Shown one piece after another: positions 27,178 to 38,914 of a stretch of 46,699 nt of DNA (the first letter of the stretch is position 1; the number at the start of each line of letters is the position of its first letter). Location: positions 1-46,699 of the IMG/VR virus record IMGVR_UViG_3300045108_000011. The stretch is one strand, 5' to 3'. Source of the stretch: a virus. The position numbers and the translations under genes are program-made. The notes under the pieces were generated by a model that saw only the letters and a list, made by a program, of their open reading frames with translations, did not search any database and had not been told where the DNA came from.

Positions 27178-27513
27178 TTAGAGCTTCTCTACCATCCGCT
27201 GCAACCGAGCTTCAGCGTGCCCCCGGTCGATGGGGTTGTTCAGCAGGATCGTGTTGAGATCTTCGATCACGTAGACAAGGAGGCCCAGGGTTGGCTCCTT
27301 CTCCTGGACGAAGCGGCCCAGCCAACGGCGGGCCATGCGCTCGAAGCGGTCTCGATCGTGCTGGCCGGCGAGCATCGTGAGGCGGAGCGCGTCCTTGACC
27401 GTCAACCAGGGGAGTGCGAAGGCATGGCGGATAGCCCGGTGATAGTCACCCTTGTTCAGGTAGGCCTCAAAGTAGGCTCTGTCACTGCCTACGTAGTTGC
27501 CAGCGTTGCCCAT
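27178..27513 (-). CDS. Hypothetical alpha-helical protein with SOS-box promoter
   Basis: 111 aa from ATG 27513, which lies directly after a LexA-type box; an upstream ATG at 27570 gives 130 aa but the box would then lie inside the coding region. The chain is almost all helical (YLNKGDYHRAIRHAFALPWL, then RFERMARRWLGRFVQEK and LLVYVIEDLNTILL), rich in Arg and aromatic residues. The family is not recognised. Reverse orientation next to the immunity region and the SOS box suggest damage-induced expression, for example an antirepressor or induction accessory. This is inference only. Confidence 0.6.
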   Translation of the reverse strand: MGNAGNYVGSDRAYFEAYLNKGDYHRAIRHAFALPWLTVKDALRLTMLAGQHDRDRFERMARRWLGRFVQEKEPTLGLLVYVIEDLNTILLNNPIDRGHAEARLQRMVEKL

Positions 27514-27527
27514 CGAACAGATGTTCG
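27514..27527. promoter_or_regulatory. LexA/SOS box
   Basis: CGAAC, AGAT, GTTCG form a perfect inverted repeat matching the actinobacterial and Gram-positive LexA operator (CGAAC-N4-GTTCG). On the reverse strand it is followed immediately by ATG 27513, with a TTGACC hexamer (27539-27534) just upstream. It could also act on the forward gene that starts about 80 bp away. Confidence 0.75.
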
Positions 27528-27606
27528 CACTTGGGTCAAGCTCTCTTGGCCCCACCGTCCATCGGTACATCTCGGTCTACCCAGCGAGGCAATGCGTGGA
27601 TTTTGA

Positions 27607-27837
27607 GTGCCGGGGGCGTGCTACTACGGCGAGGTGCGCGCCGGCGAGAACCCCTTAGCTCGGCTCAGGGAGATCAGAGGAAAGATCCGCGAGCTAGATG
27701 AGCAGCGCGAAGATCTGGTCGAGGGGCGAGACATCCTGATCCGCGAGGCCTCGAAGCAAAAGGTTTCCGAGCGGACGATCGCCGAGTCGGCCGGCCTCAG
27801 CTACGGGCGCGTCAATCAGATCGTGAATAGGCGCTAA
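27607..27837 (+). CDS. Small HTH protein (regulator candidate)
   Basis: 76 aa from GTG 27607; an in-frame GTG at 27634 is also possible and neither has a convincing ribosome site. The N-terminal half is a charged coiled coil (LREIRGKIRELDEQREDLVEGR). The C-terminal half is a helix-turn-helix of the sigma-70 region-4/resolvase type (KVSERTIAESAGLSYGRVNQIV). It is divergent from the SOS-box gene. A role in phage gene control is likely but its target is unknown. Confidence 0.65.
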   Translation: MPGACYYGEVRAGENPLARLREIRGKIRELDEQREDLVEGRDILIREASKQKVSERTIAESAGLSYGRVNQIVNRR

Positions 27838-27847
27838 GCGCTTTTTT
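27829..27847 (+). terminator. Weak intrinsic terminator candidate
   Basis: AGGCGC, TAA, GCGCTT form a six-pair hairpin (one G-T pair) that overlaps the stop codon of the HTH gene and runs into a T6 stretch. The stem is short, so termination may be partial. Confidence 0.4.
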
Positions 27848-27935
27848 GTTGACACCTATTGCCTGCAGGGTTGCCCTGTGATTGGGTCCTGAGCGAGATG
27901 CGTCAAGGAACCTCAGAGGTGCTTGCAGAGGAGCA

Positions 27936-27967
27936 CCCCCGCTGCCATGTGATTAAGGCAGCGGGGG
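27936..27967 (-). terminator. GC-rich 11-bp hairpin after the 19-codon mini-gene
   Basis: CCCCCGCTGCC (27936-27946) pairs perfectly with GGCAGCGGGGG (27957-27967) around a 10-nt loop. On the reverse strand it starts 10 bases after the mini-gene stop. No T-tract follows, but actinobacterial terminators often lack one. Confidence 0.5.
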
Positions 27968-27977
27968 CACAACGGGC

Positions 27978-28037
27978 TCAGCCCATCTTGCCGATCGAAA
28001 GGATCGGCGCTACGACCTTCATGCTCGCCAGCTTCAT
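27978..28037 (-). CDS. 19-residue mini-gene divergent from a regulator
   Basis: The reverse strand reads MKLASMKVVAPILSIGKMG and then TGA. GGAGGGGG lies about 7-10 nt before the ATG at 28037, and a strong hairpin follows the stop, so ribosome site, frame and terminator are all in place. The peptide has no secretion signal and no Cys, so it is not an obvious pheromone or lanthipeptide. It shares the operator region 28088-28177 with the divergent winged-helix gene. It could be a regulatory or leader peptide or a RiPP-like precursor. No modifying enzyme was seen nearby. Confidence 0.45.
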   Translation of the reverse strand: MKLASMKVVAPILSIGKMG

Positions 28038-28087
28038 GTGCTCACCCCCTCCGCCTAACTCGTGGTCAGGTGTCTCACTGGGGGATT

Positions 28088-28119
28088 CTCCAGCGCTGGA
28101 AGACGTTCCAGTGCTGGAG
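28088..28119. promoter_or_regulatory. Operator 1: tandem palindromes
   Basis: CTCCAGCGCTGGAA (28088-28101) and its inverted partner TTCCAGTGCTGGAG (28106-28119) flank a 4-bp spacer. Each arm itself contains a 10-bp palindrome: CCAGCGCTGG at 28090-28099, and CCAGTGCTGG, with one mismatch, at 28108-28117. Centres are 18 bp apart. It is probably the binding site of the winged-helix regulator encoded downstream. Confidence 0.75.
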
Positions 28120-28149
28120 GTGAATCTAGGGCGGGGCGCCCAGTTCCGG

Positions 28150-28177
28150 GCAGCGCTGGACTACGCTCCAGTGCTCA
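28150..28177. promoter_or_regulatory. Operator 2: tandem palindromes
   Basis: A second copy of the same element, 60 bp after the first: GCAGCGCTGG (28150-28159) and CCAGTGCTCA (28168-28177), again with 18 bp between centres. It ends 22 bp before the start codon of the regulator. Two paired operators with fixed phasing suggest cooperative binding and autoregulation. Confidence 0.75.
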
Positions 28178-28199
28178 GGAGCAATTGAGAGGGGAGTCG

Positions 28200-28811
28200 A
28201 TGGCGAGCAAAGTGAAAAAGCGCAAACCGCCGAAACGGCGGACGGCCGGCAGCGAACTGATCGACAATCGGGTCGAGGCTCTCCGCCATCACATCCGCCG
28301 TCAGATCCTCGCTCACCTGATCAACGAGGGACCCAGTAGCGCTTCGAAGATGGGCAAGGCCTTTGGCGAGAGCACCGAGGATGCCGCCTACCACCTCCGG
28401 CGCCTGGTCGAACTTAGATGCGTGGAGGTAGCCGATGAACTTTCCCAAAACGGCCGCCCAGTCCAGAAGATCTACAGGGCAACGGAGCGCTATCTGGTAG
28501 CGACGGAGGATTGGGATGCGCTGGACCCGGCGAGCAAAGAGGGCATCAGCGGGGAATGGGCGCAACTCTTCGTGGATGATCTGGTCGACGGCTTCAAGGC
28601 CGAAACGCTCGGCACGCACAGGCACTTTGCCCTCATCCAGAACCGCATCGCGGTGGATGAGCAGGGCCGGGATGAAGCGCTTGAAATTGAGGAAAGGGCG
28701 ATGCGCGAAATCCAAGATGTGCAAGCCCGCGCATTAGGACGTCTGTCTGCCGAGGAGCCTGGGATCAATATGTCGGTCCTTCAGGCTTGCTTCGAAGTGC
28801 CCCCACGCTAG
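28200..28811 (+). CDS. Winged-helix (ArsR-like) transcriptional regulator
   Basis: A 203-aa protein starting ATG 28200 after GAGGGGAG. A basic N-terminal tail (KVKKRKPPKRR) precedes a winged helix at residues about 20-95: RVEALRHHIRRQILAHLINEG, SSASKMGKAF, then the recognition helix TEDAAYHLRRLVELRCVEV. A C-terminal helical domain (about 110-200, EIEERAMREIQDVQARAL) could dimerise or bind a ligand. There are no Cys clusters for metal sensing. The two operator pairs upstream argue for autoregulation. The divergent 19-codon mini-gene and the nearby switch suggest a role in lysogeny or host-state sensing. Confidence 0.8.
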   Translation: MASKVKKRKPPKRRTAGSELIDNRVEALRHHIRRQILAHLINEGPSSASKMGKAFGESTEDAAYHLRRLVELRCVEVADELSQNGRPVQKIYRATERYLVATEDWDALDPASKEGISGEWAQLFVDDLVDGFKAETLGTHRHFALIQNRIAVDEQGRDEALEIEERAMREIQDVQARALGRLSAEEPGINMSVLQACFEVPPR

Positions 28812-28944: not shown

Positions 28945-29295
28945 TTAGCAGCCGTACTTCTGCGCGAGCACCACCACGATGTTGCCCCGCGGCTTCCCTT
29001 GGTTGCAAATCGTGTAGTTGGAGGGGACGATGATCCCGAAGGTCGTGTCGGTGTTCTTGGCCAGGGTCTTGTAGCCAGCCTGCTGGAGCATCTGCTTTGC
29101 CGCAGGCAGGGGGAGGCCCAAGACGTTGGGCGGTTCTGCTTTCGGCGTTGCGGATGCATGTTCGGCGGTGGGGGCTGGAGCGGCTTCAACGGTTTCCGCC
29201 GGCGCTTCCTTGATGACGGTCGTCGTCCCGCTACTTCCACAGGCGGTCAGTGCCATCGCGAAACACAGCAGCGCAGCAAGATTCCAAAGTCGCAT
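28945..29295 (-). CDS. Secreted PASTA-type lipoprotein
   Basis: A 116-aa reverse-strand protein with GGGGAG upstream of ATG 29295. Its lipoprotein signal peptide (LALLCFAMALTACGSSG-like) has the lipobox LTAC, with the acylated Cys near residue 19. A Thr/Ala/Pro-rich spacer (about 22-55) is followed by one PASTA domain (NVLGLPLPAAKQMLQQAGY), which in other proteins binds peptidoglycan or muropeptides. The C-terminus contains CNQGKPRGNIVVVLAQKYGC with two Cys. It probably sits on the outer face of the lysogen's membrane. A superinfection-exclusion or wall-modulating role is possible but not demonstrated. Confidence 0.75.
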   Translation of the reverse strand: MRLWNLAALLCFAMALTACGSSGTTTVIKEAPAETVEAAPAPTAEHASATPKAEPPNVLGLPLPAAKQMLQQAGYKTLAKNTDTTFGIIVPSNYTICNQGKPRGNIVVVLAQKYGC

Positions 29296-29447: not shown

Positions 29448-29696
29448 ATGCCAAATGAGGTGGACAACGAGCCGACACCTGATGCGCAAGAGATTGCGCG
29501 CCGAGAGAATGATGCGTTACGAGACTTAGCAGCAACCGCTCTGTATCACGCCGAGCGCTTGCCGATCAACTCTCGTTGGCGCGAGCCTTTCCTCCAAGTC
29601 GCTTCGTCTCTGCCTCAAGGGCCGCGGCAGCACGAAGTAGCGCCACCGGGTCCGCGTCTGAAGCTTGTGCCTCCGCCGCTTTCTCCGCACGCTTGA
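29448..29696 (+). CDS. Possible small protein overlapping the repressor candidate
   Basis: 82 aa from ATG 29448, with GAAGG seven bases upstream. The first 45 residues (EIARRENDALRDLAATALYHAERL) look protein-like; the last third is Pro-rich and antisense to the 3' end of gene 29566-29943, by 131 bases. Convergent overlap of this size makes it uncertain that both are real. No family is recognised, and I keep it at low confidence. Confidence 0.35.
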   Translation: MPNEVDNEPTPDAQEIARRENDALRDLAATALYHAERLPINSRWREPFLQVASSLPQGPRQHEVAPPGPRLKLVPPPLSPHA

Positions 29697-29943
29697 TAGC
29701 GGCCTTCCAAAGCGCAAACTGATCCTTGCCGGTCTCGAGGGCGATCGCGGCGACATAGCGTTCTACCCCCAGCGCAGTAGGGAAGCTCTCCCTCCGGAAA
29801 TACCGTTTCACTTGCTCCGGAGTGATGTTGCCTAGGTGAGCGCGGACCTGGGGCTCTCCTTTGTCCGCATCCTCAATCGCCTCGCTCAGAACATCCATCA
29901 GCGAGGGGATGACTTCGTAATTCTGGCCTTTCGGTTGCGGCAC
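29566..29943 (-). CDS. CI-like repressor candidate (divergent from XRE gene)
   Basis: 125 aa from GTG 29943, without a clear ribosome site. Helices DVLSEAIEDADKGEPQVRAHLG and TPEQVKRYFRRESFP followed by VERYVAAIALETGKD resemble an HTH of the XRE/lambda-repressor class. The C-terminal part is a helical tail (DADPVALLRAAAALEAETKRL). It is divergent from the XRE-type gene at 30035 across a 91-bp intergenic region that contains a perfect inverted repeat, the standard layout of a phage lysogeny switch. No peptidase domain is present, so induction would not use LexA-type self-cleavage. Confidence 0.6.
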   Translation of the reverse strand: MPQPKGQNYEVIPSLMDVLSEAIEDADKGEPQVRAHLGNITPEQVKRYFRRESFPTALGVERYVAAIALETGKDQFALWKAAIKRAEKAAEAQASDADPVALLRAAAALEAETKRLGGKARANES

Positions 29944-29986
29944 CGGGCGGCACGCTAGCGGGTTTTCCCCTGCTTACATGCATGCT

Positions 29987-30027
29987 GGACATATTGGCTT
30001 GACAAAATATGTCCCATCATCTAGTCT
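29987..30027 (+). promoter_or_regulatory. Lysogeny-switch promoter and operator
   Basis: TTGACA (29999-30004), a 17-bp spacer and TAGTCT (30022-30027, an actinobacterial TAnnnT box) lie 7 bp before ATG 30035, so the mRNA is probably leaderless. A perfect 9-bp inverted repeat, GGACATATT (29987-29995) and AATATGTCC (30006-30014), is centred on the -35 box. A bound repressor would block this promoter. The reverse strand also offers a TTGTCA at nearly the same place. Confidence 0.75.
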
Positions 30028-30034
30028 CGCCCTC

Positions 30035-30268
30035 ATGTCGGGAACAGGAAACCGCCTCGCCGAGCTCAGAGAGGCCCGGGAATGGCACCGCAGCAAGGTG
30101 GGCGCCCAGTTCAATGTCGGCGATAGGACCGTCTACCGCTGGGAGACCGGCGAGACGCCCATCCCATCGGAACTGATTCCTGACCTTGCCGCCCTCTTTG
30201 AGGTGTCAGCCGAACACCTCATGGGCTGGGATCGCGAGCCAGCCGAGACCGGGAAGGCAGCAGCGTGA
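30035..30268 (+). CDS. XRE-family (Cro-like) regulator
   Basis: 77 aa from ATG 30035; the longer frame to 29978 would run through the promoter. A classic XRE helix-turn-helix fills most of it: RLAELREAREWHRSKVGAQF, VGDRTVYRWETGETPIP, then LIPDLAALFEVSAEHLMGW. No C-terminal effector domain is present, so it is Cro-sized. It is divergent from the repressor candidate and probably leaderless. It opens the early operon, with ATG and GTG overlaps to the next genes. Confidence 0.85.
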   Translation: MSGTGNRLAELREAREWHRSKVGAQFNVGDRTVYRWETGETPIPSELIPDLAALFEVSAEHLMGWDREPAETGKAAA

Positions 30269-31998: not shown

Positions 31999-32171
31999 TG
32001 CGGGTCGAGTTGCAGGCCGTCTATGACGCCGCCGACAAGGGCGACCACGGCGAGGCCGAGCGCATACTCCGAACGCTTGATCTCGGGACGGTCCGCCGCT
32101 TTAACGAAACGCTGCGCATCGCCAAGAGCATGGCGAGCAAGCAGAGCCGACGCAACCAGAGGAACGACTGA
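31998..32171 (+). CDS. Small basic hypothetical protein between annealase and nuclease
   Basis: A 57-aa protein with ATG 31998 overlapping the annealase stop as TGATG. A helical pair (VYDAADKGDHGEAERILRTLD and VRRFNETLRIAKSMAS) ends in a basic tail (KQSRRNQRND). Its length, charge and place suggest a recombination accessory such as a DNA-binding or inhibitor protein; unproven. Confidence 0.55.
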   Translation: MRVELQAVYDAADKGDHGEAERILRTLDLGTVRRFNETLRIAKSMASKQSRRNQRND

Positions 32172-33013
32172 TGGCGCCGAACTTGCCGGTCAGCGCTCTC
32201 TCGGTCTCGGGGATCCGCACGCTCCACATGTGCTCGGAGAAGTGGCGGCGCCAGTACGTCGAGAGCGAATACAGCCCGCCGTCCGGCCCGATGCTCGCCG
32301 GCTCTGCGGCGGGCGCCGCGGCCAACGCGACCGACCACCGCTTCATCGAGGAGGGCGAGTTCCTCGACACCGAGGCAACGCTCGACGTCTTCTCCGACGA
32401 GTGGGAGGAGCGCCTGGAGCGAGAGGGCGAAGACACCGACTGGGGCGAGACCAAGGCGGGCGACCTGAAGGACGCGACGGCGGGCGCGCTCAAGGATTAC
32501 TCCGACCGGTTCCTTTCGACTCTGCCCAAGCCGATTGCCGTCGAGCGAGAGGCCCGCCTTGTCTATGAGGGCGTCGAGTTCGTCGCCTACCTGGACCGCG
32601 AGCAAGAGGACGGCTCGATCGCCGACCGCAAGGTCAAGGGCAAGCGGATGTCTCAGGCCGACGCCGACGCCGACAGCCAGGCCACCGGTTACATGGCCGT
32701 GCGACGCGCAGAGGCCGAGGGCGGCCTGGAGAAAGAGCCAACTGGCTTCGAGTTCCACACGCTGATCCGGCAGAAAACCAAACGCTACGCCGAGGTCATC
32801 CCCACCGAGCGGACCAACGACCAGCTCGATGAGTTCCTTGCCGGCATCTATCGCGCGGCCGAGGAGATCGAGTTTCGGATGGAAGCCGACAACTGGGCCT
32901 ATGCCCCAGACGGTGCTTGGTGGTGCTCGGAGAAGTCCTGCGGCTACTGGAGTCGATGCGTCGGTGGCGGCGGCTTGCGTGCGATTGCGGCCGAGGCGGT
33001 GAAGTCGGCATGA
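32171..33013 (+). CDS. PD-(D/E)XK exonuclease with probable Fe-S cluster (Cas4/RecB-like)
   Basis: A 280-aa protein. The catalytic motif D142 ... D152-R-K154 (YLDREQEDGSIADRKVKG) marks the PD-(D/E)XK fold. Cysteines C21 (LHMCSEKWRR) and the C-terminal set C252, C257 and C263 (WWCSEKSCGYWSRC) match the one-plus-three arrangement that holds a 4Fe-4S cluster in Cas4 and AddB-type nucleases. It would resect DNA ends to make the strand used by the Rad52-like protein. Start ATG overlaps the previous stop. Confidence is high for the nuclease fold and moderate for the cluster. Confidence 0.82.
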   Translation: MAPNLPVSALSVSGIRTLHMCSEKWRRQYVESEYSPPSGPMLAGSAAGAAANATDHRFIEEGEFLDTEATLDVFSDEWEERLEREGEDTDWGETKAGDLKDATAGALKDYSDRFLSTLPKPIAVEREARLVYEGVEFVAYLDREQEDGSIADRKVKGKRMSQADADADSQATGYMAVRRAEAEGGLEKEPTGFEFHTLIRQKTKRYAEVIPTERTNDQLDEFLAGIYRAAEEIEFRMEADNWAYAPDGAWWCSEKSCGYWSRCVGGGGLRAIAAEAVKSA

Positions 33014-37683: not shown

Positions 37684-38159
37684 TCCCGGTCGAGCAGACG
37701 ATCACTGTGCCACCGCGGGGCGACTGCTTCGGGGCCTGTGTGGCTTCGATCTTGGAGCTGCCCATCGGCGACGTTCCAAACCCAGCGCCGGAGGAGCACT
37801 GGTGGGACGCCTGGAACGAGTGGCTGCTCCTTCGCGGCTTGCAGCTTGTGCAATGGGAAGCGCCAGAGGGAGATCGCCCCGACGGCCACCGAGTCTGCTG
37901 CCGGCTTAGCGGCTATTGGATCGCCACGGTCCCTTCGCTAAACGCGCAGGCGGACCCAGCCAAGCCTGCGACCTGGGGACGGCATTGCATCGTCATGAAT
38001 GGCGACAGCGTCGCCTGGGACCCGTCACCCGGCATCAAGCGCACCGACGAGAACTGGCCAGAGGGCGACCGCATTTTCGAAGTCACCGCGCTCCTGCCAC
38101 TTAACCCACTTCAAACCGCAAAAGAGGCGGCTACCAGCTGCCAGGAAGGAAGCCCATGA
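37680..38159 (+). CDS. Papain-like cysteine peptidase-fold protein
   Basis: 159 aa from GTG 37680 (GTGA overlap). The GDCFGACVASIL start (C16 or C20 as nucleophile), H102 in GRHCIVM and D114 in AWDPSPG give the Cys-His-Asp triad spacing of C39-like and papain-like folds. It lacks a signal peptide or propeptide, so it acts inside the cell or in an assembled complex. Possible roles are processing a phage or host protein, or deamidation. The substrate is unknown, and the triad call is from spacing only. Confidence 0.6.
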   Translation: MIPVEQTITVPPRGDCFGACVASILELPIGDVPNPAPEEHWWDAWNEWLLLRGLQLVQWEAPEGDRPDGHRVCCRLSGYWIATVPSLNAQADPAKPATWGRHCIVMNGDSVAWDPSPGIKRTDENWPEGDRIFEVTALLPLNPLQTAKEAATSCQEGSP

Positions 38160-38914
38160 CTGCTACCGCAACTGATCCACTACGCGCTTTCCACGGCGAC
38201 CAGGAGGTGAAGGACAAGCTTCTCGCTCGGGTTACCGCCCATGAGAAGGCCGACGCGATAGTTCAGGGCACGTACGGCAGGAAGGTCAACGGCCACTATG
38301 AGCGCTGTGCAGTTGGGTGCTCGGTCCATGACCTGACCCAGAAACAGCGCAAGGACGACGACCTGCACTCCCTGTACCCCGAGCTGTTGGGCATCCCGGA
38401 GTGGCTCGCCCACCTTGAGGATCGCATTTTCGAGGGCCTGCCGAAGGACAAGGCTGGCGAATGGCCGCGGCGTTTCTCGGATGCCATCCCCGTAGGTGCC
38501 GACTTCGGTGGCTTGGCCGACCGCCTGGCTATCCGGCGCCTGAAGGAGGAGTGCCTACCCCTCAGCGGTCAGTGGCCTGAGTCGGTTCGAGCAGAGGTAG
38601 TCGCCTCGATCGAGCTGACCATTGCCGCGCTCGAAGGAAAGAAAAGTTTGGAGTCGGCGGAGTCGGCGGCGAGGTCGGCGGCGGAGTCGGCGGCGTGGTC
38701 GGCGGCGGAGTCGGCGGCGTGGTCGGCGAGGTCGGCGGCGTGGTCGGCGGCGAGGTCGGCGGCGGAGTCGGCGGCGGCGTGGTCGGCGTGGTTGGCGGAG
38801 TCGGCGGCGGAGTCGGCGGCGGCGTGGTCGGCGAGGTCGGCGGCGTTCGAACGCGAAGCTGATCGCCTCATTGCTGAGTTGGAAGCTCTCCCGGTTTTGG
38901 AGCCGGCCGCGTGA
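38156..38914 (+). CDS. Protein with Ala/Ser/Trp/Arg tandem-repeat domain
   Basis: A 252-aa protein. Residues 1-160 are an ordinary mixed fold (VTAHEKADAIVQGTYGRKVNGHYERCAVGCSVHD, where two Cys lie close). Residues about 165-230 are short repeats such as ESAAWSAARSAAESAAW, which form a Trp-studded helix. It ends with an acidic helix (READRLIAELEALPVL). Such SAAW/SAAR repeats occur in various bacterial and phage proteins of unknown function. The DNA behind the repeats is a near-perfect GC-rich tandem array. Confidence 0.65.
   Translation: MTATATDPLRAFHGDQEVKDKLLARVTAHEKADAIVQGTYGRKVNGHYERCAVGCSVHDLTQKQRKDDDLHSLYPELLGIPEWLAHLEDRIFEGLPKDKAGEWPRRFSDAIPVGADFGGLADRLAIRRLKEECLPLSGQWPESVRAEVVASIELTIAALEGKKSLESAESAARSAAESAAWSAAESAAWSARSAAWSAARSAAESAAAWSAWLAESAAESAAAWSARSAAFEREADRLIAELEALPVLEPAA
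38648..38850 (+). repeat. GC-rich tandem array (gcggcg/gtcg units)
   Basis: Trinucleotide-rich units built from GTCGGCGGC, GGAGTCG and GGTCGGCG repeat about twenty times in imperfect order over roughly 200 bp, all inside one reading frame. Copies differ by 3-nt steps, which suits slippage-driven length change without a frameshift. Confidence 0.8.

Follow-up and report, generated by a model that had tools for sequence, protein, structure and literature searches.

A mini-gene of 19 codons that looks like a genuine, strongly translated peptide gene lies on the minus strand of the IMG/VR virus record IMGVR_UViG_3300045108_000011, divergent from the gene of a winged-helix-type regulator with which it has a control region in common. 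The record comprises 46,699 bases and is identical to the window, i.e., the whole stretch of DNA that was analysed. With a probability of about 0.36, we consider the two genes to be a self-contained cassette whose peptide would have an intracellular repressor or regulator as its target, as in transcription factor-smORF modules. The features of the cassette are given below.

27978..28037, minus strand: mini-gene, 19 codons followed by TGA, peptide MKLASMKVVAPILSIGKMG (from translation, Shine-Dalgarno rank and coding-like codons)
28041..28052, minus strand: ribosome-binding site GGAGGGGGTGAG (from sequence; duplex energy -16.8 kcal/mol)
27933..27970 (core 27936-27967), minus strand: strong hairpin of 14 pairs, 3' of the mini-gene stop (from RNA folding)
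28091..28116, no strand assigned: operator-like dyad O1, CAGCGCTGGA-N6-TCCAGTGCTG, adjoining the only TANNNT box of the mini-gene
28151..28176, no strand assigned: operator-like dyad O2, CAGCGCTGGA-N6-TCCAGTGCTC, holding the only TANNNT box of the regulator
28123..28128, minus strand: candidate -10 box TAGATT of the mini-gene, weak, with no convincing -35 and about seven bases from O1
28162..28167, plus strand: candidate -10 box TACGCT of the regulator, weak, within O2 and with no convincing -35
28200..28811, plus strand: winged-helix-type regulator of 203 aa, HTH_20/ArsR-like at residues ~25-98 (from weak profile matches)

Mini-gene and transcript

The open reading frame and the ribosome site ascribed to the mini-gene in the initial annotation read exactly as claimed. 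ORF listings with ATG, GTG, and TTG starts contain no longer in-frame version, and the leader reads GGAGGGGGTGAGCAC-ATG. The anti-Shine-Dalgarno duplex, calculated with what we take to be the 16S tail, ranks first among the 862 ATGs in the window and surpasses all 43 hand-picked, scorable gene starts, the best of which reaches -15.2. Dinucleotide shuffling of the region 27838-28199 produced a start with a duplex energy of -16.8 or lower in 0/2000 cases, and an energy of -12 or lower together with a hairpin of -20 or lower was equally absent from the 2000 shuffles. The codons are phage-like, with a GC3 of 0.89. Their usage score is attained by 5 of 618 non-gene mini-ORFs of 14-30 aa (the mini-gene itself included), while the codon and Shine-Dalgarno scores are jointly attained by the mini-gene alone. 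The sum of Shine-Dalgarno and hairpin energies is the best among 7,659 mini-ORFs from 50 records (585,580 bases), a set whose members are not independent, since some loci overlap and the window is included more than once. One ORF of this set, in L040, combines a stronger Shine-Dalgarno sequence (-17.2) with a weaker hairpin (-16.2). With a pI of 10.3 and a GRAVY of 0.98, the peptide is cationic and of moderate hydrophobicity; it contains two Ser and neither Cys nor Thr. Inspection by eye showed a short hydrophobic run and nothing that clearly resembles a cleavage site or an export signal.

The strong hairpin that had been reported after the stop was borne out as well, with an energy of -31.4 kcal/mol as minus-strand RNA against -26.2 as plus-strand RNA. 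It is stronger on the minus strand because two of its pairs are G-U there, and by these wobble pairs the hairpin favours the transcript of the mini-gene. It is likely a terminator or a 3'-end stabiliser; as it has no U-tract and is missing from the list of a consensus terminator scan, termination itself is something we infer. The 192-nt minus-strand RNA from 28116 to 27925, which has hairpins at both ends, folds with a z-score of -5.0, and 0/200 shuffles were as good. O1 is also able to form an RNA hairpin, which may have a role at the 5' end of the mini-gene. No meaningful match was found in an Rfam search. Convergent on the mini-gene is a small HTH-type plus-strand ORF at 27607-27837 (phrog_686, E 1.1e-5), for which a T-tailed terminator of its own lies at 27829-27843.

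Regulator and shared control region

The profile matches of the regulator stay below the curated cut-offs, both with HTH_20 (E 6.4e-4, 20.1 bits against a cut-off of 27 bits) and with the NCBIfam ArsR subfamily NF033788 (1.6e-5, 24.6 against 55 bits), so that these matches point weakly to a resemblance to the ArsR/HTH_20 family rather than to membership. PADLOC matched residues 14-124 to Csa3 with an E-value of 1.1e-6. BLASTP revealed 33% identity over residues 3-98, i.e., the winged-helix region, to the HTH_20/ArsR-like helix-turn-helix protein WP_331749346.1 from a Streptomyces antimycoticus plasmid, with no match to this protein in the C-terminal half; the ~100 residues beyond the HTH region have no good family match. 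In two annotated Streptomyces loci the regulator genes precede an MFS transporter gene, unlike the layout with the mini-gene. Matches to the regulator at E ≤ 1 were found in 48 of 72,556 plasmid records and are relatives of the winged-helix part only. The Streptomyces relative matches 1 of 50,697 phage records at E ≤ 1e-3, and the regulator type therefore seems rare in the phage collection. Comparison with solved structures gave nothing under E 0.29, and the AlphaFold model, made with no alignment, has a mean pLDDT of 42.8, which is too low for use.

The starts of the two genes are separated by 162 bp. Within this gap, O1 and O2 have the common form CAGCGCTGGA-N6-TCCAGTGCT(G/C), span 26 bp each and are 60 bp apart. 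As a direct repeat they agree in 22 of 25 bases and the best palindrome matches in 13 of 14 positions, neither value being attained in 200 shuffles. With at most three mismatches the dyad occurs at these two sites only in the window (four strand-matches, 0.04 expected). The region 27700-28200 has one TANNNT box per strand, each in or beside a dyad, and a convincing promoter was found for neither gene. The position of O1 at the candidate transcription start of the mini-gene would suit repression, and the dyads and boxes together fit autoregulation and shared control. The operator region that the initial annotation assigned to both genes is thus real as sequence. Its description of the regulator as an autoregulated winged-helix protein stands less firmly, autoregulation being suggested by position and the winged-helix call by the sub-threshold profile matches. 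A search of viral contigs with the operator pattern returned 13 stretches with one site apiece, near which blastp detected no relatives of the regulator at E ≤ 1. A palindrome, AGCGCTGGA-N6-TCCAGCGCT, recurs within a 127-aa ORF of five viral contigs (L097, L098, L101, L103, and L104); this ORF shows no kinship with the regulator by blastp.

Separate immunity-type switch

The sole match in the window to a TTGACA-N17-TANNNT promoter lies at 29999-30027 and is overlapped by a perfect dyad, GGACATATT-N10-AATATGTCC, at 29987-30014. Directly beyond this promoter, at 30035, is the possible start of an HTH gene (30035-30268), which is apparently leaderless. Divergent from it is an ORF of 125 aa (29566-29943) that lacks a good family match, and no autoproteolytic repressor was identified. 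The region 29566-30268 is likely the immunity switch of the phage. As the sole promoter of this type, with a dyad of its own, is found elsewhere, the pair of mini-gene and regulator is, judged by this arrangement, a second unit with its own operators ~1.2 kb from the switch, and not the main immunity switch. The cassette lies amid other reverse-strand genes, with the lysis genes on one side and the switch on the other. Another minus-strand gene, at 28945-29295, encodes a putative lipoprotein; its lipobox-like start and PASTA-like C-terminal part were recognised by eye, and no Pfam match lies above the cut-off.

Searches for relatives

Searches of phages, plasmids, 31 related viral records and NCBIfam brought up nothing matching the peptide, and the full-length regulator likewise lacks relatives among the viral contigs, phages and plasmids searched. 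A close-relative search with the regulator in viral_contigs and genome_contigs returned pattern matches and no relative. Relatives of the phage itself were obtained at three loci via the terminase and at 31 loci via the capsid. In the 31 capsid-related records, peptide and regulator were each found in 0/31, while both queries recovered the window itself as a control. The regulator was likewise not found in six records (L002-L007), one of which is among the 31. HTH_20 was detected in 5 of the 31 related records, in two of them above the cut-off; of eight loci taken from HTH_20-bearing records, four have mini-ORFs with a Shine-Dalgarno energy of -12 or lower, none resembling the peptide. Two degenerate DNA scans aimed at the peptide returned 3 and 39 stretches, none of them convincing; on single inspection, the 39 contained no short ORF with a strong Shine-Dalgarno sequence and none continued like the query. 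No match was obtained for the terminase aligned against genome_contigs, and no relatives for the exonuclease ORF 32171-33013 in viral_contigs or for the neighbouring ORF 27178-27570. The single-protein locus search reaches close relatives only and a query as short as the peptide is close to the limit of what tblastn can handle, so that these empty results are weaker than they appear.

Conservation accordingly lends the peptide gene no support: as neither the peptide nor the full-length regulator has a relative in the collections searched, there is no evidence of selection on the ORF. A lack of conservation had been named in the initial annotation as an argument against its own proposal, and this is what was found as far as searched; for orphan phage smORFs it is not decisive. 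The literature was also searched for phage peptides with winged-helix or ArsR regulators, and nothing relevant was found.

Comparison with known systems

In the modules described by Silpe et al. 2023 (PMC10432266), among them VqmA-Qtip, TF72/TF63-smORF and XRE-LuxR-smORF, a phage transcription factor activates a divergent smORF that has no homologues, and the smORF product inactivates the phage cI repressor and leads to lysis. Two of the smORFs given there measure 183 and 156 nt (about 60 and 51 aa), and Qtip has 79 aa. The 156-nt smORF, an Aeromonas case, was unannotated and lies ~150 nt upstream of its regulators. The search in that work started from linear plasmid-like phages.

The present pair shares with these modules a phage-encoded transcription factor gene (DNA binding being suggested here by the weak HTH_20/ArsR matches), a divergent small ORF at 162 bp from the regulator start, and a smORF for which neither homologues nor domains were found, which as an absence is weak support. 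The separate repressor switch of those phages may have its counterpart in the candidate switch at 29566-30268. Nevertheless, the regulator is ArsR-like and not one of the regulator types described in PMC10432266, and the peptide has 19 aa against about 51-79 aa. Moreover, the dyads are duplicated and possibly repressing, whereas the regulators described there activate the smORF, and the phage carries an integrase, the starting set there being linear plasmid-like phages. In layout, spacing, and orphan status the pair appears closest to the phage transcription factor-smORF modules. We do not count it among them, since the functions that define membership (smORF activation and repressor inactivation) are beyond sequence analysis. 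The idea of a peptide gene paired with a regulator is to be divided. Its anatomy, a translated-looking ORF and common operators, is well supported. A role of the intracellular peptide in a phage decision is plausible, and a precedent for the layout has been published (PMC10432266). The decision-making systems that came to mind in the initial annotation were peptide-controlled ones.

Arbitrium (AimR-AimP) and other RRNPP systems place a small peptide gene beside a DNA-binding regulator in temperate phages. Here too, a small peptide gene adjoins the gene of a DNA-binding-type regulator in what is probably a temperate phage. The RRNPP criteria set out in PMC10075063 comprise a receptor of 250-500 aa with TPRs and a secreted propeptide of 10-100 aa. 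The 19-aa peptide falls within the latter range and, by eye, has no clear export signal. The regulator, with 203 aa and no TPR family in Pfam to E 0.1, differs from these receptors. An arbitrium or RRNPP reading was rejected on receptor size and TPR, and control by a peptide in the arbitrium sense is not upheld.

Proposed working and alternatives

The sequence supports the peptide ORF with its start signal and the hairpin that follows it, the two dyads, and a switch apart from them. On this basis, the following working can be proposed. The winged-helix regulator would bind both dyads in the 162-bp gap and set, by activation or repression, its own transcription as well as that of the divergent peptide gene. 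Upon a change in the state of the regulator, the peptide would be made in quantity and might act intracellularly on a phage or host protein. The target would most likely be a regulator, for instance the phage's own repressor at the switch ~1.2 kb away. The more specific version, in which the intracellular 19-residue peptide is released by the ArsR-like phage regulator and inactivates the phage repressor or the regulator itself, is put forward tentatively.

Lysogenic conversion is a somewhat unlikely alternative, in which an ArsR-like regulator of host origin would silence the intracellular peptide until stress and the peptide would act on the membrane or growth of the host. The regulator does resemble chromosome- and plasmid-type regulators (the 48 plasmid records at E ≤ 1), its Streptomyces relative matches a single phage record, the cassette lies between lysis genes and switch with other reverse-strand genes, and the peptide combines positive charge with moderate hydrophobicity. 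However, the hydrophobic run appears by eye too short to span a membrane, and homology to a toxin or a host-acting peptide is absent. The 192-nt RNA, which folds far better than its shuffles and has terminal hairpins, might itself be the active product, as a regulatory RNA or leader, with the ORF translated or not. This is an unlikely though live rival: an RNA would need neither the strongest Shine-Dalgarno sequence of the window nor phage-like codons, a meaningful Rfam match is absent, and the folding is partly due to O1, a DNA dyad that is repeated at O2.

The intracellular switch envisaged in the initial annotation, with the peptide as a ligand that releases its own winged-helix regulator from the operators in a feedback loop, is quite unlikely in our estimation. 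Divergent pairing and common operators would agree with it, as would the ~100 residues past the HTH that have no good family match, but a known peptide-binding domain is absent, the structure model is too poor to help, and no precedent for ArsR-type proteins was found in the literature searched. It is improbable that the ORF arose by chance, as a random ATG behind a purine-rich run and ahead of a terminator serving the convergent gene. The hairpin could serve that gene and conservation was not found; however, the shuffles (0/2000), the top codon and Shine-Dalgarno scores, the greater strength of the hairpin on the minus strand, and the convergent gene's own terminator all speak against it. A RiPP-type precursor, as was also suggested at first, or an exported pheromone has little but small size in its favour and is hardly credible. 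None of the seven neighbouring proteins scanned against Pfam matches a modifying enzyme, and the peptide has no Cys or Thr, two Ser, and no cleavage site or export signal obvious by eye.

Should the peptide prove to be produced and to act on a regulator, the proposed cassette would illustrate how little protein a phage decision module needs as its effector, at about one third of the published size. It would extend the transcription factor-smORF type of module past the known regulator classes, and carry the logic of such modules over from the plasmid-like phages, where it was first looked for, to a phage that integrates. Genes of 19 codons are below the usual limits of gene finders, and a combined search for start signal, hairpin, and shared dyads near phage regulators could therefore reveal more of them. 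The length of 19 aa also makes binding tests with the synthetic peptide simple.

The phage

Apart from the cassette, the window contains genes for terminase, portal, major head protein, tape measure, endolysin, an Erf-like annealing protein, exonuclease, and integrase (phrog_1, E 6e-41). With the integrase and this structural gene set, the phage is likely temperate. No tRNA genes were found in the window. The G+C content is 61-68% per 2 kb, which, along with the Streptomyces relative of the regulator, suggests a host of actinobacterial kind. Within the ORF 38156-38914, ESAARSAAWSAA-like low-complexity repeats occupy 38620-38860. A contig of 4,408 bases from another metagenome, L005, carries a terminase identical to that of the window, so that this phage, or one very close to it, is also present elsewhere.
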